Assembly (NCBI RefSeq): GCF_900105735.1
Contig: NZ_LT629793.1
Coordinates: 5,952,001-6,016,000 of the forward strand
Source: Pseudomonas yamanorum
GTDB lineage: Bacteria > Pseudomonadota > Gammaproteobacteria > Pseudomonadales > Pseudomonadaceae
Length of the DNA stretch: 64,000 bases
Direction of reading: 5' to 3'
The position numbers and the translations under genes are program-made. The notes beneath the pieces were generated by a model. The model saw only the letters and a list, made by a program, of their open reading frames with translations, had not been told where the DNA came from and made no database searches. Positions 20,413-37,367 of this stretch are shown here, one piece after another. Numbering within the stretch: position 1 is the first letter of the stretch; every line of letters starts with the position of its first letter.

Positions 20413-20480
20413 GTCTGGGCTCATTATTATTGTTAGGGCGACGCTACCTATACAAATAAGCCCTCAACGGCCAGCGGGGC

Positions 20481-21764: not shown

Positions 21765-22202
21765 ATGCAAACTCGTACCGACTTCTACACCGCCTCCCCG
21801 GACGCCATGAAAGCCATGCTCGCCCTGGAGGCCGCCGTCGGCAAACTGTCCATCGAACTGCCGCTGCTGGAGTTGATTCGCCTGCGCGTATCGCAGATCA
21901 ACGGCTGCGCCTTCTGCCTCGACATGCACACCGCCGACGCCCGCAAGGGTGGCGAGACCGAGCGCCGCCTGTACACCGTGTCGGCCTGGCGTGAAACGCC
22001 GTTCTTCACGCCCCGTGAACGTGCCGCGCTGGCCTGGGCCGAAAGCCTGACCCTGCTCAGCCAGACCCACGCACCGGATGCAGACTTCACCGAACTGGCT
22101 GCCCACTTCAGCCCGCAAGAGCAAGTCGACCTGAGCGTGGCGATCGCCACCATCAACAGCTGGAACCGTCTGGCGGTGGGCTTTCGCAAGATGCCTAAAT
22201 AA
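21765..22202 (+). CDS. AhpD-like / carboxymuconolactone-decarboxylase-family protein
   Basis: A 145-residue all-helical protein with the alkylhydroperoxidase core: NGCAFCLDMHTADARKGGE holds the CxxC pair and the downstream His of AhpD-type redox sites. Members reduce peroxides or act as gamma-carboxymuconolactone decarboxylases; the CxxC-x3-H pattern favours the peroxidase type. The ATG at 21765 has a GGAG site. It is transcribed alone and followed by a palindromic repeat. Confidence 0.88.
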   Translation: MQTRTDFYTASPDAMKAMLALEAAVGKLSIELPLLELIRLRVSQINGCAFCLDMHTADARKGGETERRLYTVSAWRETPFFTPRERAALAWAESLTLLSQTHAPDADFTELAAHFSPQEQVDLSVAIATINSWNRLAVGFRKMPK

Positions 22203-22225
22203 CCTCAAAAGACGCCGGGATGACT

Positions 22226-22360
22226 GATCGTTCCCGCGCTCTGCGTGGGAATGCCGCCCCGGACGCTCTGCGTCCAGCGGGCGATGCAAGGCTCAAGTCT
22301 TGCGCATTGGTGACGCGGAGCGTCACGGGATGCATTCCCACGCAGAGCGCGGGAACGATC
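22226..22360. repeat. GATCGTTCCC-type nested palindromic repeat, copy 1
   Basis: The outer arms are GATCGTTCCC-GCGCTCTGCGTGGGAATGC and its complement; the inner arms are built on GACGCTCTGCGTC and GTGACGCGGAGCGTCAC. Related copies at 27661 and 37254. This copy has a longer middle. Confidence 0.88.
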
Positions 22361-22434
22361 AACGAAGCCGATCCACCGCCATCGCGGCCTCGCTAAAGCT
22401 CGACCGCTCCCACCGGGTTATAGCCAATCGGCAT

Positions 22435-23199
22435 TCACTTGAAGTAACCCCGGGGCGTGGTGCCAGTCATGGCCTTGAAGAAGGCAATCAGCGCACTGTC
22501 ACTGGCAAAGCCCAACTCAAAGGCGCAGTACCCGAGACTGCGCCCGGTGGCGAGCAACTCGATGGCGCGCATCAAGCGCCACTGTTGACGCCATTGCTGA
22601 TAGCCCATGCCGGTTTCCCGCAGGAAGATCCGGCCGATGGTTTTGCCGCTGGCGGCCACCTGGTGTTGCAAGGCTTGCAGCTCCGGCGGCAGCGCGTCGA
22701 GGTTCTCCAATAACGGCGCCAGGCGTTTGTCCGTGGGCAGGGGCAGCAGCAGCGGTTGCTCGACCGCCTCGCGGATTTCACTCAAGCACAGCGCCAGCAA
22801 ATGCGCATATTTGCCCTGTTGCCAATCGGTGTCGAACGCCGCCATTGCCATTGGCTCCAGCACCGCCCGCAGCAGTGCACTCACCTCAATCACCCGCACC
22901 TGTGCCGGCAACTGTCCGGCCAATTTCGGGCTGAAGTACACCGAACGATAATCCACGGTCTGTTGCATCACTGCCCGGTGCGGCACACCGCCGGGAATCC
23001 ACGCTGCCCGAGTGGGCGGCAACAAGCACAGCTGGTTGGCCAGGGTAATGCGCGTGCAGCCCTGTTGGGTGAACAGCAATTGCCCGCGCTGATGCTGATG
23101 TACACCGGAGTCGTGATCACCCAGCAGGGCGGCGATGCCCACCACGGGTGCGTCGAAGCGGTCGGGATTGAACGGTGTCTGCGCCGCAAGCCATGCCAT
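22435..23199 (-). CDS. AraC-family transcriptional regulator
   Basis: A 254-residue protein with a small N-terminal cupin-like sensor (GVHQHQRGQLLFTQQGCTRI) and a C-terminal AraC helix-turn-helix (YCAFELGFASDSALIAFFKAMTGTTPRGYF). It is divergent from an MFS exporter, with 98 bases between starts, and probably controls it. This short cupin-AraC type often governs drug or siderophore efflux genes. Confidence 0.88.
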   Translation of the reverse strand: MAWLAAQTPFNPDRFDAPVVGIAALLGDHDSGVHQHQRGQLLFTQQGCTRITLANQLCLLPPTRAAWIPGGVPHRAVMQQTVDYRSVYFSPKLAGQLPAQVRVIEVSALLRAVLEPMAMAAFDTDWQQGKYAHLLALCLSEIREAVEQPLLLPLPTDKRLAPLLENLDALPPELQALQHQVAASGKTIGRIFLRETGMGYQQWRQQWRLMRAIELLATGRSLGYCAFELGFASDSALIAFFKAMTGTTPRGYFK

Positions 23200-23297
23200 G
23201 GAATGTCCGATTTCATTGATAACGTGTCAGAGTCTGGATAATACGCCAGCCAGCGCTGTTTAGACTCCCTGGCCTGTTTACCGGGAAGAGCCTTTCG

Positions 23298-24428
23298 ATG
23301 ATGTTGAAAAAATTGCTGGTGCTGGCGGTGGCATTGTTGATGTTCCCGCAGATCGGACAAACCCTGTACAGCCCCGCGCTGGCGGATATTGGCCAGGCGT
23401 TTGCGGTAGGGCCTGAGGCTGCGGGGCAGACCTTGTCGGTGTACTTTCTCGCCTTCGCGTTTGGGGTGGTGGTGTGGGGCCGGTTGTGCGACCGCTTTGG
23501 TCGGCGCCCGGTGATGCTGGCCGGGTTGGCCCTTTACGGCGTAGCCATGGCGCTGGCCTTGGGCGTGCGCTCGTTCAACGGCTTGTTGCTGGCCCAGGCG
23601 CTGGCGGCGTTTGGTGCGGCGGTAGGGTCGGTGGTGACGCAAACCGTGCTGCGCGACCGCTTCAGCGGCGCCGAACTGGCGCAGGTGTTTTCAGTCGTGG
23701 GCATTGCCCTGGCGGCCAGCCCCGCGATTGGCCTGTTCACCGGCGCGGGCCTCGTGCAGCACTTTGGCTATCGCGGGGTGCTCACAGGCTTGTTGCTGCT
23801 GGCGCTAACGTTATTGGCCTGGTGCCTGTGGGCATTGCCGGAAACCCGCCCGGCCTCGCTGCCCACGGCCTCGTTGCGTGGCACCCTGGGCCTGATGCTC
23901 AAGGATGCGGCCCTGTGGCGTTCGGTGGGGCTGGTCGCGGTCTTCAATATCGCGCTGTTCAGTTATTACAGCCTGGGGCCGTTTGTTTTCCAGCGCCTGG
24001 GATTGTCTGCCGAGCAGTTCGGCTATAGCGGCGTACTGCTGGCGTTGGGATCGGGGCTTGGGGCCTGGCTCAACAAGGGGTTGCTCAAGCGCGGGGCCGG
24101 CAGCGAACAGCTGGTGCTGGCAGCCGGTGGCGTGATGTTAGTGGGCAGCGTGATGGTGGTGCTGTTGCAGGAGCGTTGGCTGTTCGTGTTGCCGATGCTG
24201 TTGGTGGTCATGGCCTTCGGGATGGCGATTCCCAATGTGCTGGGGGCAGCGCTGACGGCTTATCGCGACCGCCTCGGCACCGCCGGTGCCTTGTTCGGTT
24301 TGCTGTATTACCTGGTGATCGGTGCGGGGTTGACCGTGGCGGCCTGGGCCCAGCAGTTGGGCTGGACCCTGTTGGTGTGCGCCTTGGCGGCGCTATGCCT
24401 GGCGATCCCGCGTACCGTCAGAAGTTGA
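23298..24428 (+). CDS. MFS exporter, Bcr/CflA type
   Basis: A 376-residue, 11-12 helix membrane protein. The MFS loop motif is GRLCDRFGRRPVML (after helix 2), and the first helix carries QTLYSPALADIG as in Bcr/CflA drug exporters. It is a proton-driven exporter in the inner membrane. It lies next to an AraC regulator and convergent with a TonB siderophore receptor, whose 3' end it overlaps by 11 bases, so export of a siderophore or another metabolite is plausible. An 8-bp inverted repeat (GTTGACCG at 24425, CGGTCAAC at 24448) lies at its stop codon and may end its transcript. Confidence 0.87.
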   Translation: MMLKKLLVLAVALLMFPQIGQTLYSPALADIGQAFAVGPEAAGQTLSVYFLAFAFGVVVWGRLCDRFGRRPVMLAGLALYGVAMALALGVRSFNGLLLAQALAAFGAAVGSVVTQTVLRDRFSGAELAQVFSVVGIALAASPAIGLFTGAGLVQHFGYRGVLTGLLLLALTLLAWCLWALPETRPASLPTASLRGTLGLMLKDAALWRSVGLVAVFNIALFSYYSLGPFVFQRLGLSAEQFGYSGVLLALGSGLGAWLNKGLLKRGAGSEQLVLAAGGVMLVGSVMVVLLQERWLFVLPMLLVVMAFGMAIPNVLGAALTAYRDRLGTAGALFGLLYYLVIGAGLTVAAWAQQLGWTLLVCALAALCLAIPRTVRS

Positions 24429-26562
24429 CCGTTGCACTCAAGCGTGCGGTCAACGGCGCGCCCTGGAACAGATAGTCATCGCCCATGTATTCACCGGCAT
24501 CACGCCAGTAACGCTTGTCGAACAGGTTGTCGACGCTCAGGCGAAACACCGTTTCATAGCCATCGAGCTTTGTGGTGTAGCGGCTGCCCACGTTGACGAT
24601 GGCGTAGTCGCCCACTTCCACATCACCGGTGCGATTGGCGTACTTGTTGGCGCTGTATTGCACACCGCCGAGCAACGCCAGGCCGTCGACCCAGGGCAGG
24701 GCGTAGTCGGCATACAGGCTGGCGCGCAGTTTCGGCACGTTGATCGCCTGATGGCCTTCGTATTCCGGTGTGCCGCTGCCCGACACTCGTGCACGGATGG
24801 CCGCGACGCTGGCGGCGATCTGCAAGCGCTCGGTGGCCCAGCCGTTGGCGGATAACTCCAGGCCGGTGTTTTTCTGTTGGCCTTGTTGCACGTAGGTGAA
24901 CGCACCCGCGTCGTCGGGTTTGGCGTATTGATAGGCCTGGCGAGTCTGGAAGATCGCGGCTGCGAAGCTGATGCGGCGCCAGTCGTATTTCACACCGGCT
25001 TCGATTTGGCGGGAGACGGTTGGGGCAAGGGTGTCGAGGTTGTTGAGGGCGTACCACGGCGCCGTGCCGCCCAGAGACAAACCCTTGCTGTAGCTGGTAT
25101 AGAGCGACAGGTTTTCAATCGGCTTGTAGATCAGCGCTGCCTGGGGCAGGAACATGTATTGCTGGGTATGGCGCGATTCATCACCGTTGGTATCGTAGGC
25201 GCGCTCGTCGAGACGTACCTCACGGCCACCCAGCACGGTCTGCCATTGTTCATTGAAACGTATGGTGTCAGTCAGGAACAGGCCGTACTGGCGGCTGTCC
25301 AGGCGACGGTGGCTGGGGTTGAGTTCGCCGTCGTAGCGCGGGAAGTTTTCCGGCTCCTGATTGATATTGCCCGTGCCGATCCATTGATTGATCGGTACAC
25401 GATTGTCCACGACTCGGCGAAACGCGCTCGTACCAAACGTCAGCTCATGCCCCAGCCCACCGGTATCAAACAACCCGGTCATCGCCGCCTGAATTTCATC
25501 ATCGCGGCGGGTGTCATCCGGGCTGCGGAAGTCGTAAATGCCATAGTCGCCTTCCGGGCTGAAGTAATTGCCGTTGCCCGCAGTGTCGCCACCCCACGCA
25601 AACGAACTGTAATCATCAATCACCACCTTGCTGCGCGCCGCGCTCACGCTGCCTTTCCATTGGTCATTGAAGCGGTACTCAAACTTGCCATTGAGGTTCA
25701 GCGAATCGATCCCTACCTGATTCGCACCGCTCTGATGCCCCAGCAGTTTTTTCGGTGACGCGTCGTGCGGCACCTCGGTCCCGCCCAGCAATTGATAACC
25801 CGGCACCGAGCGCTGCTGCTTGTTCTGATACTCGGCATCCAGCTGCAATACCGCGTCGGGGCTGATGTTCCAGTCGAAGGCCAGGGACAGGAAATCCCGG
25901 TGGCCATTGGCATGTTCGACATAAGCGTTGAGGTCTTCATGGGCCACGTTCGCGCGCAGGCCGAACTGCTGCTCGCTGCCAAACCAGCCGCCCACGTCGG
26001 TGGCCAGGTAGCCGCTGCCGCGATCATCGGTGGACACCGTCACCGAGCGCACATCTTCCGGACGCTTGGTCACGTAATTGATCACGCCGCTGGGCTCGGA
26101 GATCCCGCTTTGCAGGCCCGACAATCCCTTGAGCAACTCCACGCGCTGCTTGTTCTCCAGGGCAACGTTCTGCTCGCCGGTGATGGTGCGGCCATTGATC
26201 TTGTAGCTGCTGGCGGCATTCAGCGAGAAGCCGCGCACCACGAAGTTTTCGTAGTAGCCGATGGGTGCATAGCTGTCGCCCACCGAGGCGTCATTGCGCA
26301 GCACTTCGCTGAGCAAGCGCGCCTGTTGATCCTTGATCAGCGACTCGTTGAACACCGCGATCGAGGCCGGCGTGTCGAGCAGCGGCGCCTCATTGAAACC
26401 GCCCACCGACGCAGTGTCGCTGTTATAGCCGGATTCATCCTGGCCCTGGACCTTCACCTCCGACAGCTCGATATCAGCCGCCTGGCTGCTACCGATGCCT
26501 GTGCTGAGCAACAGGCCGAGGGCGAAATGTGAAGGAACAGCGGGGCGAAGACGCAAAACCAT
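24418..26562 (-). CDS. TonB-dependent siderophore receptor
   Basis: About 714 residues: signal peptide, plug domain (DTPASIAVFNESLIKDQQARLLSEVLRNDASV, SSYKINGRTITGEQNVALENKQRVELLKG, SGVINYVTKRP) and a 22-strand barrel ending ARLSATVNF. It should import a ferric siderophore with TonB energy. There is no N-terminal signalling domain, so it does not act through a FecR/sigma pair. The probable TonB box is near IELSEVKVQG. The start is uncertain (26562 or 26598). The stop overlaps the MFS gene on the other strand. Confidence 0.92.
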   Translation of the reverse strand: MVLRLRPAVPSHFALGLLLSTGIGSSQAADIELSEVKVQGQDESGYNSDTASVGGFNEAPLLDTPASIAVFNESLIKDQQARLLSEVLRNDASVGDSYAPIGYYENFVVRGFSLNAASSYKINGRTITGEQNVALENKQRVELLKGLSGLQSGISEPSGVINYVTKRPEDVRSVTVSTDDRGSGYLATDVGGWFGSEQQFGLRANVAHEDLNAYVEHANGHRDFLSLAFDWNISPDAVLQLDAEYQNKQQRSVPGYQLLGGTEVPHDASPKKLLGHQSGANQVGIDSLNLNGKFEYRFNDQWKGSVSAARSKVVIDDYSSFAWGGDTAGNGNYFSPEGDYGIYDFRSPDDTRRDDEIQAAMTGLFDTGGLGHELTFGTSAFRRVVDNRVPINQWIGTGNINQEPENFPRYDGELNPSHRRLDSRQYGLFLTDTIRFNEQWQTVLGGREVRLDERAYDTNGDESRHTQQYMFLPQAALIYKPIENLSLYTSYSKGLSLGGTAPWYALNNLDTLAPTVSRQIEAGVKYDWRRISFAAAIFQTRQAYQYAKPDDAGAFTYVQQGQQKNTGLELSANGWATERLQIAASVAAIRARVSGSGTPEYEGHQAINVPKLRASLYADYALPWVDGLALLGGVQYSANKYANRTGDVEVGDYAIVNVGSRYTTKLDGYETVFRLSVDNLFDKRYWRDAGEYMGDDYLFQGAPLTARLSATVNF

Positions 26563-26648
26563 GGGGGAAGGCCTGAGAGTACAGAGCGGAGGGCGCATAA
26601 GCTAGGCATAACGGCGGCGTTTTACAAGTTTGCGAGAAGGATTCGCGT

Positions 26649-26665
26649 TGAGACGCCCCGTCTCA
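26649..26665. promoter_or_regulatory. AcoR-type operator upstream of budC
   Basis: TGAGAC-GCCCC-GTCTCA, a 17-base inverted repeat with 6-bp arms. The same arms and spacing occur at 33908 between acoR and acoA. It lies 88 bases before the acetoin reductase start. I could not find a clear -24/-12 promoter here. Confidence 0.65.
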
Positions 26666-26752
26666 GCCCGCAGACCAATCCTGCTGCTGCTCGACAGCGG
26701 CCCCTGGCAACTGCGATAGACAAGGCTTCTCTCACCGTTGAAGGGGATCGTC

Positions 26753-27532
26753 ATGAGTATCGCTGGAAAAGTTGCACTGGTGACCGGCGCCGGGCAAGGC
26801 ATCGGCCGGGCCATCGCCTTGCGCCTGGCCCGGGATGGCGCCGACATTGCGTTGGTGGACATCAACAGCGCGAAGATTGAAGCGGTGGCGGCCGAGATCG
26901 CTGCACAGGGGCGCAAGGCCTCGGTGTTTGTTGCCGACGTCTCGAAGCTGGAGCAAGTGGTCGCGGCGGTGGACCATGCCCACCAGACCCTGGGCGGCTT
27001 CCACATCATCATCAACAACGCCGGCGTCGCACAGATCGACGCACTGCTGGACGTAACCCCGGAACAGGTCGACCGCACGCTGCGTATAAACGTGCAGGGC
27101 ACACTCTGGGGCATCCAGGCCGCGGGCAAGAAATTCAAGGCGCTGAAGCAGAAGGGCAAGATCATCAATGCCTGCTCGATTGCCGGTCATGAAGGCTTTG
27201 CGCTGCTGGGGGTGTATTCGGCCACCAAGTTTGCCGTGCGCGCGCTGACCCAGGCCGCCGCGAGGGAGTTGGCCAGTGACGGGATTACCGTCAACGCCTA
27301 CTGCCCGGGTGTGGTGGGCACGGATATGTGGGTCGAGATCGACAAACGCATGGCCGAGATTACCGGCGCCGAGGTAGGGGCGACGTACAAGAAGTATGTG
27401 GACGGGATTGCGTTGGGCCGGGCGGAAACGCCGGAGGATGTGGCGGGGCTGGTGTCGTACCTGGCGGGGCCGGATTCGGATTACATGACCGGGCAATCGC
27501 CGTTGATTGATGGGGGGATTCTCTACCGCTGA
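26753..27532 (+). CDS. budC: Diacetyl/acetoin reductase (short-chain dehydrogenase)
   Basis: A 259-residue classical SDR with NAD(P)-binding TGAGQGIGRA (about 11-20), NNAG, and catalytic Ser in NACSIAGHEG and Tyr-x3-Lys in YSATK. The overall sequence is closest to (S)-acetoin-forming diacetyl reductases / 2,3-butanediol dehydrogenases. It would interconvert diacetyl, acetoin and butanediol and feed AcoABC. ATG 26753 follows AAGGGGAT. A shared operator with acoA indicates control by AcoR. Confidence 0.88.
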   Translation: MSIAGKVALVTGAGQGIGRAIALRLARDGADIALVDINSAKIEAVAAEIAAQGRKASVFVADVSKLEQVVAAVDHAHQTLGGFHIIINNAGVAQIDALLDVTPEQVDRTLRINVQGTLWGIQAAGKKFKALKQKGKIINACSIAGHEGFALLGVYSATKFAVRALTQAAARELASDGITVNAYCPGVVGTDMWVEIDKRMAEITGAEVGATYKKYVDGIALGRAETPEDVAGLVSYLAGPDSDYMTGQSPLIDGGILYR

Positions 27533-27557
27533 AACGGCTGAATCACGCGGTCAAAAT

Positions 27558-27644
27558 GTGGGAGCGGGCTTGCTCGCGAATGCAGAGTGTAAGGCACCTA
27601 CTATGTGACTGATACACCGCATTCGCGAGCAAGCCCGCTCCCAC
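27558..27644. repeat. REP inverted pair
   Basis: GTGGGAGCGGGCTTGCTCGC and its inverted copy, directly after budC. Confidence 0.9.
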
Positions 27645-27660
27645 ATTTTTTACCGCGTTT

Positions 27661-27772
27661 GATCGTTCCCACGCTCTGCGTGGGAATGCCGCCTGGACGC
27701 TCCGCGTCCGCTTCTGCAGTCGTGACGCGGAGCGTCACAGGATGCATTCCCACGCGGAGCGTGGGAACGATC
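27661..27772. repeat. GATCGTTCCC-type nested palindromic repeat, copy 2
   Basis: Complete element: GATCGTTCCCACGCTCTGCG outer arm, inner GACGCTCCGCGTC and GTGACGCGGAGCGTCAC, then the complementary outer arm. It ends 2 bases before the stop of the acoR fragment. A near-identical copy ends the acoABC operon at 37254. Confidence 0.9.
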
Positions 27773-27773
27773 A

Positions 27774-27955
27774 TCAGTGCTTGCCGGGCATGTCGATACC
27801 CAGCTGGTTAACCCGCCGATACAAGGTCGCCCTGGAAATCCCCAGCGCCTGCGCCGCCGCCAGCGGTTTCCACCGATGCCGAATCAACGCATCCAGCACC
27901 CGTTGCTGCTCCGGGCTCACGCTTTCCTGCTCTTCAACCGCAACCGCTTCATCGG
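27774..27955 (-). pseudogene. Detached 3' end of acoR
   Basis: It encodes the last 50-60 residues of AcoR: VSPEQQRVLDALIRHRWKPL, the Fis-type helix-turn-helix and the terminal IDMPGKH, including the stop. It matches 31949-32130 at about 95% over the first 105 bases and less well beyond, then becomes unrelated AT-rich sequence. It has no start and no catalytic domain. It abuts the repeat at 27661, which is probably the ancestral neighbour of acoR, so this is likely the original gene end cut off by the island. Confidence 0.85.
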
Positions 27956-28025
27956 GACATCTACCGATTGAATCACCTCTCACAAATCGCGCAGACATAG
28001 GCGGCGCGTGTAAGTACGCTCGCAC

Positions 28026-28602
28026 AAAAAATATATAAGGATCAATCGAAGCTCTTTGGTGGATGTATCATCTCTGATTCTGCGAAAGTTCCGTAGGACA
28101 CTACTACTGTGCCTGTAGGGGTAATGTTATCTGTTGGTGAGTAAGTTGGTCTGAAAGTTGAATTTTTATGTGATTTATCAATTGCTTCTACTTTGTTTTT
28201 TTACGTATACGGCTGATTTATAAGAGTAATTTTCTGTTGTGGTGTGGGTAGGCTTGGTTTTTTTCAAAAAAACTTCACATCTGAAGGGGTTGCATTAAGT
28301 GTTGTTTCATTGTTTTATATTTGTGCCTTCTGCTTTATATGGGTTCCAAGATTTATCTGGTACTGGTTCTTCTGAAGGTTCTTCGCCAGTTTATTTTTAT
28401 CAGTATTGAGGGTTTTTTTGAATGCATCGTGGTGCTTCTTTTGAATTGTACTTCGCGATATTGATTGAATGATTTTGATAGGCTGAAATGCTTCGCCGGT
28501 TTTTAAGCTTGAGTTGCTACGTGATCAAATTTCGTTCTGATTGGGTTGCGCGGGAGCCTTGGCTATTGAGGATTTATTGTCGGCTTCCATGGAGGAAATA
28601 AA
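28026..28602. other. AT-rich leader region of the island, no gene seen
   Basis: About 575 bases with no convincing frame. It contains a GTTTTTTT-C-AAAAAAAC hairpin near 28257-28273 and many T runs. The promoter of the cassette must lie here, but I cannot pick -35/-10 boxes with confidence. A 42-codon hydrophobic frame at 28339 lacks a ribosome site. Confidence 0.6.
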
Positions 28603-29697
28603 ATGGGTGCTCTTAGTGTGTCGAATAATATGGTTGAAGTGTCATTGATTTTTGGAGGGATGTCGCCGGAGCACGCCGCATCTAGGGAGTCCTTCAGCTA
28701 TGTATATGATCAGTTGTGTACTGAAAATTGTGGTGTGTGTATAAGTCATGTTTATTATGTTGATTCTGATAATGACGTTAGTTTTTATGATTTTGACAGA
28801 AGTTGGCACTCTCGTGACTATATGGTCTCAAAGGATGCAGTGGATTATGCGACTTTCGCAAAGCATGTATTAGGTGCCAATGGTTATATCGTTAATCTTT
28901 TGCATGGTAATTATGGGGAGGATGGGCATATTCAAGGTTTGGCTAATATTGTTGGTCTTCGTGGTACTTTTGGGCCAGTTTTGCCGTCAAGTTTGGCAAT
29001 GAGCAAAATTCACATGCAGTGCTACGTATCAGGGTCGCAAAGTACTATAAAAGTACCTGCGACGTTAACGTTAACAGACGCTAAGTCTTGCTCGGCAGTC
29101 GCGGAGATAAAAAATCTCTTTGATGGGCTTGAAGTAGTCGTTAAGCCTAACTCATTGGGGGCGTCTTTGTTTACTGAGCGATATACGGTTTCCGATATTG
29201 AAATATCTATAATAGAAGATAATCTGCGCGCTATATTCAAATATGACGAAAGAGCTTTGATTCAAGAGTTTGTTGAGGGTCAAGAGTATTCTATAGGGTG
29301 CATAAGGCTTGATCATAAAGTCGTTGTCTTACCAGCGATTAGAATTGATACAAAGAGAGGCTTTTTTGGACACGAGGAGAAGCACCGGATTGGTAGCGCT
29401 GATGAGGTCCTGATGGAGGAGGATACTGTGGAGATCCTGCATATGAAGCGTGTTTCTCGGGATCTATTTGATGAGTTAGGTTTTTCACACATGTGCCGTT
29501 TTGATTACATTTTAACTCCAAGTGGTGATGTGTATTTTTTAGAGGCCAATCCAATCCCTGGGCTGATGCGTAATAGTATTCTTCCAAAAATGTTGAATGG
29601 ATATGGGCTTTCCTTGGCAGATATGATACTTAACTTTGTCTCTCAGGATGATATGAAGGTTATGAGGCTTTCTAAAGTTGACTACACGATAGATTAA
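28603..29697 (+). CDS. D-Ala-D-Ala-ligase-fold ATP-grasp enzyme
   Basis: A 364-residue protein of the Ddl/Van family, first gene of the island, with GGAGGAAATAAA before the ATG. N-domain: VSLIFGGMSPEH (the Glu at 23 aligns with the substrate-amine Glu of DdlB) and HGNYGEDG (101-108). ATP-grasp domain: VVKPNSLGAS (179-188), LIQEFVEGQEYSIG. Metal ligands: Asp301 in CRFDYIL, Glu314 and Asn316 in LEANPIPG. It should join two amino or hydroxy acids with ATP. The omega-loop reads FFGHEEKH (254-261), with His where Ddl has Tyr (usual FYDYEAKY), so the second substrate is unlikely to be simply D-Ala. A housekeeping ddl would sit with mur genes, which are absent here. Confidence 0.88.
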   Translation: MGALSVSNNMVEVSLIFGGMSPEHAASRESFSYVYDQLCTENCGVCISHVYYVDSDNDVSFYDFDRSWHSRDYMVSKDAVDYATFAKHVLGANGYIVNLLHGNYGEDGHIQGLANIVGLRGTFGPVLPSSLAMSKIHMQCYVSGSQSTIKVPATLTLTDAKSCSAVAEIKNLFDGLEVVVKPNSLGASLFTERYTVSDIEISIIEDNLRAIFKYDERALIQEFVEGQEYSIGCIRLDHKVVVLPAIRIDTKRGFFGHEEKHRIGSADEVLMEEDTVEILHMKRVSRDLFDELGFSHMCRFDYILTPSGDVYFLEANPIPGLMRNSILPKMLNGYGLSLADMILNFVSQDDMKVMRLSKVDYTID

Positions 29698-29708
29698 GGA
29701 GCAATGGC

Positions 29709-30422
29709 ATGGAACGCATTGGTTTGATTGGAGGTGTAAGTTGGGTTTCTACAATGGAGTATTATCGTAGGTTCAATCTGATCGCGCAGGAAGCAGGTGG
29801 GCACAAATCGGCGGATCTTATGGTGTTTAGTCTAGATTTTAGTAAAATCCTAAAGTGTCAAAAAGAAGATGATTTTAAAGGTGAGTTTGAGATTCTGTTA
29901 AGTGCGGCGATTAAGTTGGAGTGTGCGGGGGTAACCAAGATATTAATATGTTCCAATACCACTAGTAAGACTTGCGACTTGCTCAAAAATAAGATTTCCA
30001 TTCCGGTTATAAATGTCATAGATGCAACGATTTCCGCGGTTAAGGCCTCTGGATTCAAAAAAGTGGGATTGCTGGGGACCAAGTACGTGATGGAACGTGG
30101 TTTTTATGTCGATAGATTTGGAGTGGAAGATATTGAGGTTTCTTTGCCGGAGGCGCATCTCCGTTATGCTGTCCATGCCGCGATTTATGATGACTTGTGT
30201 CTACATAATTTTTCCAAGAAAGCCAAGAGCGCGGTCTATCGAGCGATGGATAATCTGATTGATCAGGGTGTAGAAAGTCTAATATTGGGGTGTACTGAGT
30301 TGCCTTTGATTGTCGATGAACGATCAGAATATGGCGGGGTTGATTTGATTGACTCAATTGATGTGCATATTGCGGCGGCTTTAGGTCGCCAGAGAGTTTC
30401 AAGAGGCTTAGGGGCTAGTTAA
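29709..30422 (+). CDS. Aspartate/glutamate-racemase-family protein
   Basis: A 237-residue cofactor-independent racemase. Two catalytic cysteines are present, in ICSNTTSK (about 77-84) and LILGCTELPLIV, with N-terminal GLIGGVSWVSTMEYYR as in YgeA-type broad amino acid racemases. The first motif is usually CTNTMHK; here MH is replaced by TS, which may alter substrate choice. The start has AAGGAG 7 bases upstream and lies 11 bases after the ligase stop. In this operon it would supply a D-amino acid to the ligase. Confidence 0.87.
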   Translation: MERIGLIGGVSWVSTMEYYRRFNLIAQEAGGHKSADLMVFSLDFSKILKCQKEDDFKGEFEILLSAAIKLECAGVTKILICSNTTSKTCDLLKNKISIPVINVIDATISAVKASGFKKVGLLGTKYVMERGFYVDRFGVEDIEVSLPEAHLRYAVHAAIYDDLCLHNFSKKAKSAVYRAMDNLIDQGVESLILGCTELPLIVDERSEYGGVDLIDSIDVHIAAALGRQRVSRGLGAS

Positions 30423-31268
30423 TTGAGCTTCGTTCAAGGGTTAGCATTTCTGTCGATACTATTATGTGTTACTTTGAGAACTCTGTTCTTTCGAAGTGTA
30501 GCGAGTAAAGCTCTTCCAAAAACTACTGCTTGGGCGATTGGGTCTGGAACTACCTGTATTTGTTTGTTGTTGTTTCCTATTGCTTGGGTAACTGGACTGG
30601 CGAATACGGATATGCTCCTGAATGCGTCGGGAGCGATAGCGGGGCTAACTAAGGGGGTGTTGCTTACGATGCTCCTTGTTGTCCAGCAACAGATAATTGG
30701 CCGTAGCGTTTCTGCCACGGCATATGTTTTTCCGATTGCCATCGGTGCGATAGTTTTTTTGGAGTATTGGCTTTTTGGTAGTCAGATATCAGGGCAGGGC
30801 ATACTTTCAGTACTCGTTCTTTTTATAGGGGGGATTTGTTTTGTGATTTTTGGTCATCTGAGTTTTATGCCTCGGATTGATACATTAAGATTCTATTTTA
30901 TGATTCTCGCCGTAATAGGATTTGCTGGATGTGACAAGGTTGGAATACCAGCGTCTGGTTGGTACGTATATTTACTATATGTCGGAATTGGCAATTGGGT
31001 GTCCGCGCGATTTTTTATATATGAGAAGTCTGGAATGAGATTTGGTTTGTGGGTGATGATCGCGTTAGGATGGACCATTCCTGAGTTAATTTTTAATTTT
31101 GCGCTGGCGGGGACTCTACCAGTTAGCTATGGATATTTAGCAATTTCAATGAGAGTTCCATTGCTTATGATCGTCGCCTATTTCTTATATAAAGAAGGGC
31201 GTGCAAAATCCCAAATTTTCTTTGGGGCTATCGCTTTTTTAGGAACCGTTCCACTTTTTATTAAATGA
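30423..31268 (+). CDS. EamA/DMT-like 10-helix membrane transporter
   Basis: A 281-residue, very hydrophobic protein with about ten membrane helices in two halves. Each half ends in an EamA-like segment (AYVFPIAIGAIVFLEYWLFG then GISVLVLFIGG-type helix; YLAISMRVPLLMIVAYFLYK then FFGAIAFLGTVPLF). The start is TTG directly after the racemase stop (TAATTG) with AGGGG upstream. EamA proteins usually export amino acids or small metabolites, so this is the likely exporter of the cassette product. The family call rests on topology and weak motif similarity. Confidence 0.65.
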   Translation: MSFVQGLAFLSILLCVTLRTLFFRSVASKALPKTTAWAIGSGTTCICLLLFPIAWVTGLANTDMLLNASGAIAGLTKGVLLTMLLVVQQQIIGRSVSATAYVFPIAIGAIVFLEYWLFGSQISGQGILSVLVLFIGGICFVIFGHLSFMPRIDTLRFYFMILAVIGFAGCDKVGIPASGWYVYLLYVGIGNWVSARFFIYEKSGMRFGLWVMIALGWTIPELIFNFALAGTLPVSYGYLAISMRVPLLMIVAYFLYKEGRAKSQIFFGAIAFLGTVPLFIK

Positions 31269-31277
31269 GGTGTGTTT

Positions 31278-31880
31278 ATGGTCGCATGCGTTCCTTATTT
31301 CTGCCAATGGGAATCCCGACTTTTGGCTGCCGATATAATTTCTGGCGAGAAGACGGTTTCTGAGGATCCGCTTTGGATAAACTCTGGAGCCCGATGCGTG
31401 GATGAGTATGCATTGTGGGCTAATCACGTATGTGGCATGGCCTGCCTTAAGATGCTTCTTGCCGCCAAGACGGGTCTCGTTCACTCAACGTTCAGCCTTC
31501 TGGAAAAGGCGTTGGCCTACGGAGCCTACGTAGTCGATGGCGAAAGTATCCATGGGATGATTTATGCGCCGGCGATTGAGATGTTAAATAAAGAATTTGG
31601 TCTGAAGGCACAGATTGTCACCGGTATCTCTGCGGAGGAGATCAAGCCGATGTTTACTGACGGTCATTTCTTTATTGCGTCTGTGCACCCTTCTATTCGA
31701 TGGCCTGAGCAAGAGCCGCCAAAGAAAGGAGGTCATCTTGTATTGGTAACAGACGCAACTGACGACTTCCTGAAGTTTCATAACCCATCGGGTCATAACT
31801 CACATTCGCAGGAAAACGTCGTCATGAATGCTGAGTCCTTCGGAAGGTACTTTGCGGGTCGAGGAGTCTTAATTAGATAA
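31278..31880 (+). CDS. C39-like cysteine peptidase
   Basis: A 200-residue protein with the pattern of Peptidase_C39_2 domains: a catalytic Cys in NHVCGMACLKMLLA (near 52), His in KKGGHLVLVTDA and Asn/Asp in LKFHNPSGH. It has no signal peptide, no ABC transporter domain and no leader peptide gene nearby, unlike bacteriocin-processing C39 proteins. It could hydrolyse or transfer amide bonds of the ligase product, or give self-protection. GC content here is somewhat higher than in the other island genes. GAGGTG precedes the ATG at 31278; GTG 31272 is an alternative. Confidence 0.72.
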   Translation: MVACVPYFCQWESRLLAADIISGEKTVSEDPLWINSGARCVDEYALWANHVCGMACLKMLLAAKTGLVHSTFSLLEKALAYGAYVVDGESIHGMIYAPAIEMLNKEFGLKAQIVTGISAEEIKPMFTDGHFFIASVHPSIRWPEQEPPKKGGHLVLVTDATDDFLKFHNPSGHNSHSQENVVMNAESFGRYFAGRGVLIR

Positions 31881-31948
31881 GAGTAGAAGTGGTTTTTGAT
31901 AACGCCTGTCTGGGGTAGGCAGCTATAAGCTGCCATTCGATGGGCTTG

Positions 31949-33814
31949 TCAGTGTTTTCCGGGCATATCGATACCCAGCTGGTTAACCCGCCGATACAAG
32001 GTTGCCCTGGAAATCCCCAGCGCCTGCGCCGCCGCCAGCGGCTTCCACCGATGCCGGATCAGTGCGTCCAGCACCAACTGCCGCTCTGGGCTGACGCTTT
32101 CCGATGTTTCCACCGCAACCGCGTCACCGCGAACTTCCACCGGCAAATCCGCCAATTGAATCGTCCCGCCATCGCACACCGCACACGCATACGCCAACAC
32201 ATGCCGCAGTTGCCGCACATTCCCCGGCCAGGCATAACCCAGCAGCAACTCCAGCGCCGCTGCCGCGATCCCGACCGCAACACCGCTGTGCCGCGCCTCT
32301 TGCTCCAGAAGCCGATTGATCAACGCCAGTTTGTCCGTGCGCTCGCGCAATGGCGGCACACAGAACCGCGCACAGCCCAACCGGAAATACAAATCCTCGC
32401 GAAAGCTTCCAGCACTCACCAGTGCCGCCAAGTCCCGATGGCTGGCGCAGATCACCTGGATATCCACCGCCCGGGTTTTCGCTCCGCCCAGCGGCGCCAC
32501 TTCACCTTCAGCCATCACCCGCAGCAGTCGCGTCTGCAACGCCAGTGGCATGTCGCCGATCTCGTCGAGAAACAACGTGCCGCCATCGGCCTGCAACAGC
32601 AGCCCGGTCATGCCCTTGCTGGAGGCACCGGTAAACGCCCCGGCCACGTAGCCGAACAGTTCGCTCTCAATCAGGTTTTCCGGGATCGCCGCGCAGTTCA
32701 CCGCCACAAAGGGGCCGTCGCGGCGGGCGCTGCGTTCATGCAACTGGCGGGCAAACACTTCCTTGCCGGCGCCGGTTTCGCCCTGGACCAGCACCGGCAG
32801 GTTGCGGTCCTTGACCCGCACGGCCAGGCGCAAATGCTCTTCCACACGCGGGTCTATCTGACTGGCCAAGGACGTTACCGCCCGCGCCGCTTTACGCCGT
32901 GGCGCGCTGACCCGTACCTGCAAGGCTCCAGGTTCGCCGAGCCAGTGCAACTGCTGCGTCGATTGATCGGTCACGGCGCGCAACGCGTCCAGGTCAAACA
33001 CTTCGCCGATATGCTCCGGCAACTGCCCGAAGCGCACCCTCAGGGCCTGCCGCGCCTTGCTGTTCAAGGCTTGCAGCCGCCCGTCCTGATCCCACGCCAG
33101 CAGCATGTCCGGCTGGCTGTCGACGTAACCCGGCGTGCTGTGGGCCTGCAACACCCAGTGCTGCCGGGCGCTGTGCATGAAAAACGCGTTCTCGATGGCC
33201 CGTGCACTTTGCGCCACCATCTGCCGCACCAGGTGCTGGCTGCGCCGATCATCCGGTGACTTGAGGGCAGAGGCATCCATCACGCCCAGCAGGTTGCCCT
33301 GGGGATCGAAGATCGGTGCGGCAGAGCAGGTCAGGCCAATAAATGCCGCCCGAAAGTGGTCGCGTTTGTGCACGGTGACCGCGGCCTTGCTGGTCAGCAC
33401 CGTGGCCACGCCGCAAGTGCCTTCCTCGGCTTCCGACCAGCAGGTACCGAGGTACAGGCCGGCCTTGCGGCAGTCGTTACGAATGCCGGCGTCCACACGA
33501 TGGTCGATGGTCTGGCCCTGGGCGTCGGTGAGCATCACGCAGTAATCGGCGTGGCGCACCCGGTTGTGAATCTGCCCGACTTCCTCGCTGGCGATGCGCA
33601 TGAACAGTTCGGCGCGTTCGCGGCACTCCTTGAGCAGGGTGCTGGTGAGAATGCGCGGCCCTTGCAGGGAACCGGGGTCGAGGTGGTGCTGCTCCATGGA
33701 GCGGCGCCAGGAGTCAAAAATCAGCGACGGCACCGGCGCCTGGGGCAGGCGGTCGGCGTTGCGAACCACACGGCTGACGCAGTCGACATGGTCCTTGGAG
33801 TTCACGGCGAGCAT
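31949..33814 (-). CDS. acoR: Sigma-54-dependent activator of acetoin catabolism
   Basis: A 621-residue enhancer-binding protein. It has an N-terminal GAF-like sensor region, a PAS-like middle, a AAA+ domain with Walker A GETGAGKE (near 343), the sigma-54 contact loop GAFTGA (near 393) and Walker B GGTLFLDEIGD, and a C-terminal Fis helix-turn-helix ending IDMPGKH. It activates acoABC in response to acetoin. GGAGGC precedes the ATG at 33814. Operators with TGAGAC/GTCTCA arms lie between it and acoA. Its last 180 bases are present again at 27774, beyond the island. Confidence 0.93.
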   Translation of the reverse strand: MLAVNSKDHVDCVSRVVRNADRLPQAPVPSLIFDSWRRSMEQHHLDPGSLQGPRILTSTLLKECRERAELFMRIASEEVGQIHNRVRHADYCVMLTDAQGQTIDHRVDAGIRNDCRKAGLYLGTCWSEAEEGTCGVATVLTSKAAVTVHKRDHFRAAFIGLTCSAAPIFDPQGNLLGVMDASALKSPDDRRSQHLVRQMVAQSARAIENAFFMHSARQHWVLQAHSTPGYVDSQPDMLLAWDQDGRLQALNSKARQALRVRFGQLPEHIGEVFDLDALRAVTDQSTQQLHWLGEPGALQVRVSAPRRKAARAVTSLASQIDPRVEEHLRLAVRVKDRNLPVLVQGETGAGKEVFARQLHERSARRDGPFVAVNCAAIPENLIESELFGYVAGAFTGASSKGMTGLLLQADGGTLFLDEIGDMPLALQTRLLRVMAEGEVAPLGGAKTRAVDIQVICASHRDLAALVSAGSFREDLYFRLGCARFCVPPLRERTDKLALINRLLEQEARHSGVAVGIAAAALELLLGYAWPGNVRQLRHVLAYACAVCDGGTIQLADLPVEVRGDAVAVETSESVSPERQLVLDALIRHRWKPLAAAQALGISRATLYRRVNQLGIDMPGKH

Positions 33815-33907
33815 TGAAGCCTCCGGTTCTCGATCCTTGTTGTTATGCCCGCCATTAAGCGCCCATGGGCCGGGCGGGACAAGGGCGGCCTGACCAACTG
33901 CCCGAGG

Positions 33908-33924
33908 TGAGACGCAACGTCTCA
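33908..33924. promoter_or_regulatory. AcoR operator 1
   Basis: TGAGACG-CAA-CGTCTCA, a 17-base palindrome with 7-bp arms, about 120 bases above the acoA -24/-12 promoter, a normal enhancer distance. It matches 26649 upstream of budC. Confidence 0.75.
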
Positions 33925-33931
33925 TCCCGGC

Positions 33932-33967
33932 TGAGACGCTGCGGGCAGGTTGCAACGGCGCGTCTCA
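33932..33967. promoter_or_regulatory. AcoR operator 2 (widely spaced arms)
   Basis: TGAGACGC at the left and GCGTCTCA at the right, the same half-sites as operator 1 but 20 bases apart. It may be bound as two half-sites next to operator 1. Confidence 0.6.
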
Positions 33968-34045
33968 TTGAACGGGCCACAGTGGCATGCCCGGGACTTC
34001 CGGCAGCTGCTCTGGATCAAGGCTTTCCCAGGTTTTCCAGCGGAT

Positions 34046-34061
34046 TGGCACAGGCCGTGCT
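34046..34061 (+). promoter_or_regulatory. Sigma-54 promoter of acoABC
   Basis: TGGCAC-AGGCCG-TGCT has the GG and GC doublets at the exact 12-base spacing of -24/-12 promoters. It lies 64 bases before acoA and 80-140 bases below the AcoR operators. Confidence 0.8.
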
Positions 34062-34124
34062 GAGTGCCTTGCAGCTGGCCTGATCCAGCCTTTTGTGTGT
34101 CGAGACAACCTGGAGAACAACAAG

Positions 34125-35102
34125 ATGTCCACTCACCTGTCCACCGATCAATTGCTCCATGCCTACACCGTGATGCGCACCATCCGTGATTTCGAAGAAC
34201 GCCTGCATGTGGAATTCGCCACCGGCGAGATTCCCGGTTTCGTGCATTTGTATGCCGGCCAGGAAGCCAGTGCCGCCGGGGTCATGGCCCACCTCAACGA
34301 TGAAGATTGCATCGCCTCCAACCACCGTGGCCACGGCCATTGCATCGCCAAGGGCGTGGATGTGTTCGGCATGATGGCCGAGATCTACGGCAAGAAAACC
34401 GGGGTGTGCGGCGGCAAGGGCGGCTCGATGCACATTGCCGACCAGGAGAAGGGCATGCTCGGCGCCAACGGCATTGTGGGGGCCGGTGCGCCGCTGGCAG
34501 CCGGTGCTGCCCTGGCGGCCAAGCTCAAGGGCAGCGCGGGTGTGGCGGTCGCGTTTTTCGGTGACGGCGGCTCCAACGAGGGCGCGGTGTTTGAAGCCAT
34601 GAACCTGGCCTCGATCATGAACCTGCCGTGCCTGTTCGTGGCCGAGAACAACGGTTACGCCGAAGCCACGGGGTCCGGCTGGTCGGTGGCCTGCAAGGAC
34701 ATTGCCGAGCGCGCCGTGGGCTTTGGCATGCCAGGGGTGATTGTCGACGGCAACGACTTTTTCGCTGTACACGCCGCCCTTGGCGTTGCGGTAGAACGTG
34801 CCCGCAGCGGTAAGGGGCCGACGCTGGTGGAGGTCAAACTGAGCCGTTTCTACGGGCACTTCGAAGGCGATGCGCAAACCTATCGCGGCCCGGACGAGGT
34901 GAAAAACCTGCGGGAAACCGGCGACTGCCTGAGCCTGTTTCGCCAGCGTTGCACCGCCGAAGGCTGGCTCGACGCGGCTCAGTTCGAACGCATCGACACC
35001 GAAGTCGCGCAACTGATCGAAGACGCGGTGCGCCTGGCCAAGTCCGACCCCAAACCCCAGGCCGCCGACCTGCTCAGTGATGTCTACGTCGCCTACCGCT
35101 AA
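34125..35102 (+). CDS. acoA: Acetoin dehydrogenase E1 alpha subunit
   Basis: A 325-residue TPP-dependent E1 alpha subunit. The TPP/Mg motif runs from GDGGSNEG to the terminal AENN (about 140-170). It forms an alpha2beta2 unit with AcoB and cleaves acetoin, passing acetyl to the lipoyl arm of AcoC and releasing acetaldehyde. GGAGA precedes ATG 34125. The upstream sigma-54 promoter and AcoR sites explain its control. Confidence 0.93.
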   Translation: MSTHLSTDQLLHAYTVMRTIRDFEERLHVEFATGEIPGFVHLYAGQEASAAGVMAHLNDEDCIASNHRGHGHCIAKGVDVFGMMAEIYGKKTGVCGGKGGSMHIADQEKGMLGANGIVGAGAPLAAGAALAAKLKGSAGVAVAFFGDGGSNEGAVFEAMNLASIMNLPCLFVAENNGYAEATGSGWSVACKDIAERAVGFGMPGVIVDGNDFFAVHAALGVAVERARSGKGPTLVEVKLSRFYGHFEGDAQTYRGPDEVKNLRETGDCLSLFRQRCTAEGWLDAAQFERIDTEVAQLIEDAVRLAKSDPKPQAADLLSDVYVAYR

Positions 35103-35141
35103 CCGCCACCCACTACAAAAACAATCCGTGGAGAAGTCATC

Positions 35142-36161
35142 ATGGCTAGAAAAATCAGCTATCAGCAGGCAATCAACGAAGCCCTGGCCCAGGAAATGCG
35201 CCGGGACCAGAGCGTGTTCATCATCGGCCAGGACGTGTCCGGCGGTACCGGTTCGCCCGGTGAACAGGACGCCTGGGGCGGGGTACTCGGCGTCACCAAG
35301 GGCCTGTACCCGGAATTCCCCGACCGCGTGCTCGACGCGCCGCTCTCCGAGGTCGGCTATGTAGGCATGGCCGTCGGCGCCGCCACCCGAGGCATGCGCC
35401 CGGTGTGCGAATTGATGTTCGTCGACTTTATCGGCTGCTGCCTCGACCAGCTGCTCAACCAGGCGGCGAAGTTTCGCTACATGTTCGGCGGCAAGACCAC
35501 TACGCCGCTGGTGGTGCGCGCCATGTACGGCGCCGGCCTGCGTGCGGCGGCCCAGCACTCGCAGATGCTCACCTCGATGTGGACCCATATTCCCGGGCTC
35601 AAGGTGGTGTGCCCGGCCACGCCCTATGACGCCAAGGGCATGCTGATCCAGGCGATCCGCGACAACGATCCGGTGATTTTCCTCGAACACAAAATGCTCT
35701 ACAGCCTCCAGGGCGAAGTGCCGGAAGAGCTGTACACCGTGCCGTTCGGCGAAGCCAACTTCGTGCGTGAAGGCAATGACGTAACCCTGGTGACCTACGG
35801 GCGCATGGTGCACATCGCCCTGGAAGCCGCAGCCAACCTGGCGCGCCAAGGCATCGATTGCGAAGTGCTGGACCTGCGCACCACCAGCCCGCTGGACGAA
35901 GACAGCATCCTTGAAAGCGTCGAGAAAACCGGGCGCCTGGTGGTGATCGACGAGTCCAACCCACGTTGTTCGATTGCCACGGACATCAGTGCATTGGTGG
36001 CGCAACGCGCGTTCAGCTTCCTGCGCGCGCCGATCGAAATGGTCACCGCGCCCCATACCCCGGTGCCGTTCTCCGATGCCCTGGAAGACCTGTACATCCC
36101 CAACGCGGCGAAGATCGAAGCTGCGGTGCTGAAGATCGCCGACAAGAGGAATGCCGCATGA
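35142..36161 (+). CDS. acoB: Acetoin dehydrogenase E1 beta subunit
   Basis: A 339-residue E1 beta protein of the pyruvate-dehydrogenase family with N-terminal YQQAINEALAQEM, RVLDAPLSEVGYVGMAVGAA and a C-terminal transketolase domain (VTYGRMVHIALEAA). It lies 39 bases after acoA with a GGAGAAG site and overlaps acoC by 4 bases (ATGA). Confidence 0.93.
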   Translation: MARKISYQQAINEALAQEMRRDQSVFIIGQDVSGGTGSPGEQDAWGGVLGVTKGLYPEFPDRVLDAPLSEVGYVGMAVGAATRGMRPVCELMFVDFIGCCLDQLLNQAAKFRYMFGGKTTTPLVVRAMYGAGLRAAAQHSQMLTSMWTHIPGLKVVCPATPYDAKGMLIQAIRDNDPVIFLEHKMLYSLQGEVPEELYTVPFGEANFVREGNDVTLVTYGRMVHIALEAAANLARQGIDCEVLDLRTTSPLDEDSILESVEKTGRLVVIDESNPRCSIATDISALVAQRAFSFLRAPIEMVTAPHTPVPFSDALEDLYIPNAAKIEAAVLKIADKRNAA

Positions 36162-37255
36162 TCCATACACTGACCATGCCCAAGTGGGGGCTGTCGATGA
36201 CCGAGGGCCGGGTCGATGTCTGGCTCAAGCAGCCGGGCGACCGGGTGGAGAAGGGCGAAGAAGTGCTGGATGTCGAGACCGACAAGATCTCCAGCAGCGT
36301 CGAGGCGCCGTTCAGCGGAGTGCTGCGGCGGGTGTTGGCCCAGAGCGATGAGACCTTGCCGGTGGGGGCATTGCTGGCAATCGTAGTGGAAGGCGAGGCC
36401 AGCGAGGCCGAGATTGATGGGGTAATCGAGGCGTTCCAGGCGGGGTTCGTTTCCAATGCTGCCGAGGCTGAAGCCAGCGGGCCATCGGCACAGAAGGTTG
36501 AAGTGGGCGGGCGCTTGTTGCGCTATCTGGACCTCGGGGAGGGCGGCACACCGCTGGTGCTGATCCATGGCTTTGGCGGCGACCTGAATAACTGGCTGTT
36601 CAATCACCCGGTGCTCGCGGCTGAGCGGCGGGTGATCGCCCTGGATTTGCCGGGGCATGGCGAGTCGGGCAAGTACCTGAAAGACGGCGATCTTGAGGCG
36701 TTGAGTCAGGCGGTATTGGCACTGTTGGATCATCTGAAGATTGACCGGGTACACCTCGCCGGGCATTCCATGGGCGGGCTGGTTTCGCTGAATATTGCGC
36801 GACTGGCGCCGGCGCGTGTGGCGTCATTGACGCTGATCGCCAGTGCTGGATTGGGTACGCAGATCAACGGTGATTACCTGCAAGGTTTTATCGACGCGAG
36901 CAATCGCAATGCACTCAAGCCGCACCTGGTGCAACTGTTCAGTGACCCGGCGCTGGTGACCCGGCAGATGCTGGAAGACATGCTCAAGTTCAAGCGCCTG
37001 GAGGGGGTGGATCAGGCGTTGCGGCAGATCACCGGGGCGTTGTTCAGCGGTGGTCGGCAATTGGTGGATTTGCGCAACGTTGTCGGGCAGCAGCCGAGCC
37101 TGGTGATCTGGGGCAGTGAGGACGCAATCATCCCGGCGAGCCATGCCCAGGGGTTGGAGGCTCAGGTGGAGATACTGCCGGGGCAGGGGCATATGGTGCA
37201 GCTGGAGGCGGCGGAGCGAGTGAATCAGTTGATGCTGGCGTTTCTTCGGACCTGA
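36158..37255 (+). CDS. acoC: Acetoin dehydrogenase E2 (lipoyl / alpha-beta hydrolase)
   Basis: A 365-residue protein with an N-terminal lipoyl domain (lipoyl Lys43 in ETDKISS) joined to an alpha/beta-hydrolase domain (LVLIHGFGGD, nucleophile elbow GHSMGG near 205, C-terminal His in GQGHMVQLE). This unusual architecture, without a CoA-acyltransferase core, is diagnostic of AcoC. It accepts the acetyl group and yields acetyl-CoA. The operon here lacks acoX, acoL and a butanediol dehydrogenase, so E3 must come from elsewhere. Confidence 0.93.
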   Translation: MIHTLTMPKWGLSMTEGRVDVWLKQPGDRVEKGEEVLDVETDKISSSVEAPFSGVLRRVLAQSDETLPVGALLAIVVEGEASEAEIDGVIEAFQAGFVSNAAEAEASGPSAQKVEVGGRLLRYLDLGEGGTPLVLIHGFGGDLNNWLFNHPVLAAERRVIALDLPGHGESGKYLKDGDLEALSQAVLALLDHLKIDRVHLAGHSMGGLVSLNIARLAPARVASLTLIASAGLGTQINGDYLQGFIDASNRNALKPHLVQLFSDPALVTRQMLEDMLKFKRLEGVDQALRQITGALFSGGRQLVDLRNVVGQQPSLVIWGSEDAIIPASHAQGLEAQVEILPGQGHMVQLEAAERVNQLMLAFLRT

Positions 37256-37359
37256 TCGTTCCCACGCTCCGCGTGGGAATGCCGCGCTGGACGCTCCGCG
37301 TCCCGAGGGTGACGCGGAGCGTCACAGGATGCATTCCCACGCAGAGCGTGGGAACGATC
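37254..37359. repeat. GATCGTTCCC-type nested palindromic repeat, copy 3
   Basis: It starts within the acoC stop codon (TGATC) and ends 8 bases before the AraC gene stop. The structure is as at 27661, and it probably acts as the shared 3' end of both convergent genes. Confidence 0.9.
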
Positions 37360-37367
37360 TTCAACAC

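Follow-up and report, generated by a model that had tools for sequence, protein, structure and literature searches.

What a compact, AT-rich set of four genes is doing inside an acetoin locus of Pseudomonas yamanorum is the question raised by this stretch of DNA (NZ_LT629793.1, positions 5,952,001 to 6,016,000), the whole 64,000 nucleotides of which are here called the window. The cassette in question consists of four consecutive plus-strand genes at 28603-31880, with gaps of 0-11 bases between them in the open reading frame (ORF) list and its translations, which encode a Ddl-fold ATP-grasp ligase, an amino-acid racemase, a transporter and a C39-like cysteine enzyme. The main new result is the occurrence of a C39/papain-fold family beside Ddl/Van-type ligases. 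The reading that we favour, at a probability of roughly 0.45, is that the cassette makes a dipeptide metabolite with a D-residue, which would be exported, and that the C39-like enzyme would hydrolyse D-dipeptides or their precursors.

The C39-like protein (31278..31880, plus strand, 200 aa, with an alternative GTG start at 31272) was found to combine a papain fold with Cys-His-Asn residues, of which C52, H153 and N169 are invariant. The initial annotation had called it a C39-like peptidase, a description that is borne out by fold and residues and falls just short in Pfam, where Peptidase_C39_2 (PF13529) scored 22.3 bits against a gathering cut-off of 24; the same family is precomputed for part of the homologues, among the 120 listed. 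No signal peptide was recognized by eye. The family is large, with at least 2609 proteins, and widespread, and in 27 of the 47 loci examined its gene adjoins that of a Ddl/Van-type ligase. Twelve of the 47 are plasmid loci hand-picked from 54 + 51 records, one of which (L199) was chosen because its listing showed vanX and also surfaced in the ligase search, and another locus (L160) comes from a genome reached via a different ligase (L003). Among the loci found with C39 queries, a ligase stands beside the C39 gene in 21/41, or in 20/40 when L199 is removed, for which the three ligase-family genes in the 7.09-Mb genome of the strain itself provide a rough yardstick. The Streptomyces hits numbered 25, of which 19 were fetched, one (L005) was already included and five (G910, G954, G960, G962 and G966) were left out. 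In L145, L152 and L197 the partner ligase is incomplete or broken up, and L107 has its C39 gene in two parts. L007 was excluded from the count, since about 8 kb separate its C39 gene from the ligase and place it outside the fetched piece.

In three vanH-vanA/O-vanX operons, a C39-like gene directly follows vanX (L158 6747-10063, L159 6693-10009 and L199 856-4163). The van genes of L158 pass the NCBIfam cut-offs, those of L159 are 89-91% identical to them and those of L199, which is labelled a vanO cluster, 85-90%; by hhalign, the C39 protein of L158 belongs to the same family as that of the window. Additionally, a MurF-like gene or a MurF C-terminal domain was found near a Ddl and a C39 gene in seven Streptomyces loci (L143, L144, L147, L158, L159, L196 and L197), and the MurF of L196, the sole one tested whole, scored above the cut-off. 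Because the C39 gene often lies beside Ddl/Van ligases, in some loci together with VanX, M15, M55 or MurF genes, the context of the family points to D-dipeptide or cell-wall-precursor chemistry as its probable sphere. As an observation in its own right, the MurF C-terminal domain stands alone after the Ddl-like and C39 pair in three of the Streptomyces loci, as a protein of 118-123 aa (L143 7393-7764, L144 6725-7087 and L147 7121-7477; the Pfam test was made on L143).

The ligase (28603..29697, plus strand, 364 aa) matches Dala_Dala_lig_N and Dala_Dala_lig_C of Pfam, both above cut-off, and keeps K181, R299, D301, E314 and N316, which are invariant in 29 aligned sequences. However, it reaches the cut-off of none of the 25 NCBIfam Ddl and Van models shown. 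The best of them gave 147.5 bits against 310, and the others include TIGR01205 (147.1 against 245.65), VanG (115.5 against 495), D_ala_D_ser (110.4 against 520) and D_ala_D_lac (78.2 against 550). Two active-site positions are altered with respect to Ddl: GAS (Ala187) stands in place of the GSS motif, and K-H (His261) in place of K-Y in the omega loop, whereas the DdlA of the same genome keeps GSS and K-Y. Across the 14 sequences of alignment A4, FFGHxxKH is invariant. The Tyr221 of Burkholderia pseudomallei Ddl, listed as a contact of D-Ala-D-Ala in an excerpt of PMC6899670, aligns with His261 when the numbering is counted by hand. In a midpoint-rooted tree of 30 rows, the window ligase falls in a group of 21, split with 100/100 support from the other nine, made up of the two Ddl proteins of the strain (DdlA and DdlB), one ligase of VanO type, and Ddl-like ligases from Streptomyces and from the same phylum; L087 and L158 form long branches. 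We take the histidine of the omega loop to be reminiscent of VanA-type depsipeptide ligases. A duplicate of an ordinary Ddl was rejected on the NCBIfam scores, the active-site changes, the tree split and the presence in the genome of two further Ddl-family genes, 29% and 26% identical to the window ligase. The initial annotation had named an ordinary D-Ala-D-Ala ligase as what would overturn its proposal; judged from its sequence, the enzyme is not one, and plain D-Ala-D-Ala is an unlikely product because of the altered active site at Ala187 and His261.

The relatives of the ligase keep company of another kind. In Streptomyces, an LAL-type ATP-grasp gene accompanies the ligase in L004, a further ATP-grasp gene does so in L004, L005 and L007, and MFS (tested in L005) and M55 genes are found near members of the group. 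An LAL-type gene also lies about 4 kb from the ligase of Sinorhizobium meliloti (L086), the ligase of Mesorhizobium L087 stands beside alr, panD and an S58 peptidase gene, and the locus of P. phymatum holds a MATE transporter gene and a 4.3-kb AMP-binding gene, presumably of the nonribosomal peptide synthetase type. These ATP-grasp, MFS, M55, LAL-type, MATE and long AMP-binding neighbours point to the making of small peptides as the likely setting of the ligase group. It was also seen that, in the Sinorhizobium and Mesorhizobium plasmid loci L086 and L087, short leader ORFs precede the ligases, which look nifH-like by eye and gave no Pfam match.

The second enzyme of the cassette is a racemase of the PF01177 family (29709..30422, plus strand, 237 aa), with 114.8 bits for Asp_Glu_race against a cut-off of 31 and 160 against 93.1 for TIGR00035, so that the naming of an ATP-grasp ligase and an Asp/Glu-type racemase in the initial annotation holds for both proteins. 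It is YgeA-like, aligning nearly full-length with the YgeA-type structures 3ojc, 5hqt and 5ell, and differs from that type by a score of 167 bits for the equivalog PRK10200, below the cut-off of 417, and by NTTS at the place where the structures read NTMH. The C-terminal cysteine of GCTE is present, and a Ser occupies what we take to be the usual position of the first Cys.

The transporter (30423..31268, plus strand, 281 aa, TTG start) belongs to a rare family. It had been described as EamA-like, which is right as to fold, since its AlphaFold model is of the DMT type, and not as a family match, since no Pfam family, EamA (PF00892) included, was hit at E 0.1. Among 6073 candidates, nine protein clusters were found at E 0.001 in a search that requires shared 5-residue words, one of them being its own 98% cluster, and of 298 genomes of the genus only the strain's own gave a match. 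The closest solved fold is LicB (7paf) at 14% identity, followed at 8% by 5i20, the structure that we take to be YddG. In R. rhizogenes the order is C39, Ddl and EamA transporter, the last without detectable similarity to that of the window (BLAST E 0.41), an arrangement that supports transport as a part of some C39-Ddl sets under either of the two readings weighed below, export of a product or rewriting of the wall.

The same four genes occur in the same order at a different site in Pseudomonas sp. LP_7_YM (L002), with identities to the window of 58% for the ligase, 67% and 60% for the two pieces into which the racemase gene is split, 60% for the transporter and 60-61% for the C39-like protein. 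The co-occurrence as a unit that the initial annotation proposed to look for is thus found elsewhere, although both complete copies read, the window and L002, are from Pseudomonas. In both, the transporter lies inside the cassette. Outside the genus, a ligase end fused to a racemase piece in Brevibacillus borstelensis (P0058) gives a hint of a possible ligase-racemase pair. In the cluster lists, the pairs P0014/P0006, P0033/P0009 and P0094/P0002 have longest contigs of equal length, which suggests, short of proof, that each pair lies on a common contig. Conversely, the C39-like gene may also stand alone within the genus, since Pseudomonas sp. NA-150, which has the C39 protein P0132 (63%), is not among the sources given for the listed ligases and transporters. 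A search with A4 matched one of 369 genomes of the class, namely the strain's own. With P0019, at E 1e-50, there was no match among the 200 genomes of the family to which G612 belongs, a set that held no positive control.

Taken together, these genes are consistent with the following route. The racemase, by its family, would invert an L-amino acid to the D form; the ligase, judging from its fold and ATP-grasp residues, would activate one D-amino acid as an acyl phosphate and join it to a second amino or hydroxy acid; the transporter may export the product; and the C39-like protein, by its neighbours elsewhere, could act as a cytosolic cysteine hydrolase of D-dipeptides or of wall precursors with D-dipeptide tails, by which the product would be kept out of the producer's own peptidoglycan. 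That the product is a small D-amino-acid-containing (pseudo)dipeptide is a tentative proposal, held at somewhat less than an even chance. Several points weigh against a secreted dipeptide. The C39 relatives that accompany vanHAX and MurF point to work on wall precursors instead, and the partners of C39 in the same phylum have the GSS and K-Y of Ddl and resemble the normal enzyme, so that C39 company alone implies no unusual dipeptide. The peptide-cluster neighbours belong to distant members of the ligase group (30-44% identity), and the pieces fetched for L086 (S. meliloti), L087 (Mesorhizobium) and P. phymatum show no C39 gene. When the ligase is taken as the starting point, the pairing is rare, with a C39 match in 5 of the 86 ligase-derived pieces (L002-L087), most of the C39-free ones holding ordinary-looking Ddl of 23-33% identity. 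LicB, the closest solved fold of the transporter, is a choline importer, and DMT proteins include importers.

The evidence pulls in two directions, the company of C39 towards wall precursors and that of the ligase group towards small-peptide making. Under the former, the cassette would be a VanC-like set rewriting the stem peptide in a Gram-negative bacterium, the changed wall evading a lytic enzyme or a wall-binding agent: the transporter would import an L-amino acid, the racemase would convert it to the D form, the ligase would make D-Ala-D-X for installation by the housekeeping MurF, and the C39-like enzyme would remove normal D-Ala-D-Ala or precursor ends as VanX or VanXY do. This is a genuine possibility, well short of even, to which the three van operons and the seven Streptomyces loci with MurF described above lend weight. 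So does the literature, in which vanX loss from van loci of Ktedonobacteria is accompanied by the acquisition of two genes, one for M15B and one for C39 (excerpt of PMC9689679), racemase, Ddl and VanY sets are proposed as an alternative wall remodelling and PALP, Ddl and VanX sets are likened to vanHAX (excerpt of PMC8698665), and racemase, ligase and peptidase together follow the logic of D-Ala-D-Ser (excerpt of PMC8541618). However, none of the four cassette genes codes for a regulator of van type, an M15 peptidase or MurF, the ligase falls outside the Van/Ddl group in the tree, and glycopeptides hardly reach the Gram-negative wall. A bolder form of the idea, in which the C39-like protein would be the first of a novel class of cysteine D,D-peptidases in the cytosol, functional counterparts of VanX and VanY whose genes are partnered across phyla with those for Ddl, Van and MurF proteins, and the cassette would be a self-contained Gram-negative system rewriting the stem terminus with a non-alanine D-residue, every VanC part but the ligase fold being replaced by an unrelated protein, is unlikely. 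The dipeptide metabolite is favoured over VanC-like rewriting because of the company of the ligase group and the dedicated transporter.

A set for scavenging or recycling, in which the transporter and the C39-like enzyme would take up and split D-residue peptides while ligase and racemase rebalance the pools of D-amino acids, would suit Mesorhizobium terrae, where a C39-like gene follows, in one row, the genes of a dipeptide ABC transporter and of an M19 dipeptidase (L190 387-4106). It would also suit the Streptomyces loci, in 8 of 19 of which (L149, L150, L151 and L153-L157) a C39-like protein of a second type adjoins an alanine-aminotransferase-like gene, the one tested lying below the equivalog cut-off. 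However, with a dipeptide ligase that spends ATP encoded in one operon with them, a futile cycle would result, and the rare transporter sits in the cassette at both loci read, which leaves this account quite improbable. That the genes are neighbours by chance, or that an additional ordinary Ddl gene has brought passengers along, might be considered given that only two complete four-gene loci, both from Pseudomonas, were read, but this is the least credible account and a very poor one: two unrelated sites share the gene order, with identities of 58-67%, the ligase is not ordinary by NCBIfam scores, active site and tree, and the adjacency of 21/41 stands against the rough yardstick of three ligase-family genes in the genome.

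Among known systems, the VanC-type set (VanT, ligase and VanXY; excerpt of PMC8541618) resembles the cassette in the logic of a racemase, a Ddl-superfamily ligase and a D-peptidase. The cassette differs in having a racemase and a peptidase of other families, a ligase outside the Van/Ddl group, a separate DMT transporter and a Gram-negative host; its racemase belongs to PF01177 and none of its four proteins matches M15, whereas VanT is presumably of the Alr type and VanXY of M15. The pdx operon of Micromonosporales (PALP, Ddl-like and VanX-like genes with VanRS; excerpt of PMC8698665) is alike in joining an amino-acid enzyme, a Ddl-like ligase and a peptidase, and is unlike the window, which has a C39-like protein and a DMT transporter in place of PALP, VanX and VanRS. 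PALP and Ddl-like genes, likened to pdx by gene content, do lie beside the C39 family in L004, L005, L008, L084 and L196. The Ktedonobacteria loci share, by gene type rather than sequence, a C39-type gene within a D-Ala-D-X cluster, whose partners are M15B and vanHA, unlike those of the window (excerpt of PMC9689679). In vanO-type operons an orf2 of unknown function follows vanX (excerpt of PMC8698665), and this may be, at a guess from its position, the C39-like gene. In the open-licence literature, to which the search was confined, no paper was found that treats the four genes as a unit or, for Proteobacteria, a C39 gene next to a Ddl gene. The initial annotation, which knew of no described pathway, is thus upheld for the four genes together and needs amending for related combinations, sets of racemase, Ddl-like and VanY-like genes and sets of PALP, Ddl-like and VanX-like genes having been published for Actinobacteria (excerpt of PMC8698665). 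If the C39-like family does act on D-dipeptides or UDP-MurNAc-pentapeptide, it would be an unrecognized enzyme class in the control of cell-wall precursors, found in bacteria of soil and plants and also within some vanHAX operons. The gene type that has been recorded in van loci without an explanation would then gain a function. The cassette itself is a minimal, four-gene candidate route to a D-amino-acid dipeptide, and thus, in Pseudomonas, either to a novel secreted metabolite or to a novel chemistry of the wall.

As to its origin, the cassette is probably foreign, acquired horizontally, because its G+C content is 38-48% in 500-base steps over 28000-31999 as compared with 58-67% in the other steps of 20000-39999, which agrees with the compact AT-rich operon first described. 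To the left lies an acetoin reductase gene (26738..27532, plus strand; TIGR02415 above cut-off) and to the right an intact, minus-strand regulator gene of sigma-54 type (31949..33955), for which all specific NCBIfam models stay below cut-off and which, by position, we take to be AcoR; beyond it, from 33987 onward, follow PDH-E1-like alpha and beta genes, in keeping with the proposed acetoin locus. The 3' end of the regulator gene (31949-32132) is repeated at the left junction as an extra partial copy of 184 bp (27774..27957, minus strand, 87% identical), so that the limits first assigned, 27956..31948, match the junctions. The AT-rich leader between this copy and the ligase gene (27958..28602, assigned to no strand), without a convincing gene or Rfam match, is the presumed promoter region, although promoter and terminator scans scored no higher than shuffles. 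No mobility gene was found among the insert ORFs of at least 80 aa, as had been noted. An RNA element or tRNA site was rejected, there being no Rfam match in 26500-33500 and no tRNA in the 64-kb window, as was a known defence system, for which PADLOC gave a single weak match (E 0.014). Among viral contigs, none of 79 pattern matches was a relative, and no plasmid record carrying the transporter was found.

In G004 (L184), the relative with the closest regulator (88%), the site is empty, the reductase ending at 5653 and the regulator at 5852 with no cassette between them; both regulator 3' copies of the window are about equally distant from it (71% and 72%). In three other relatives (L185-L187) the regulator has different neighbours, which makes them uninformative on the insertion site. 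The cassette of L002 has an intact minus-strand Mrr-type nuclease gene on one flank and, on the other, a partial copy of the 3' part of this gene that has diverged from it (flanks 7100-7487 and 11481-12170; 88% in two stretches, of 322 bp and 86 bp). Both Pseudomonas cassettes thus have an intact minus-strand gene on one side and an 87-88% partial 3' copy on the other, the genes being unrelated, and this shared geometry at two unrelated sites suggests a common way of arrival; no recombinase is visible at either. Two large imperfect inverted repeats, with arms of 48 nt and 36 nt, lie at 27553-27773 of the window, in the interval that separates the acetoin reductase gene from the left copy of the regulator end.

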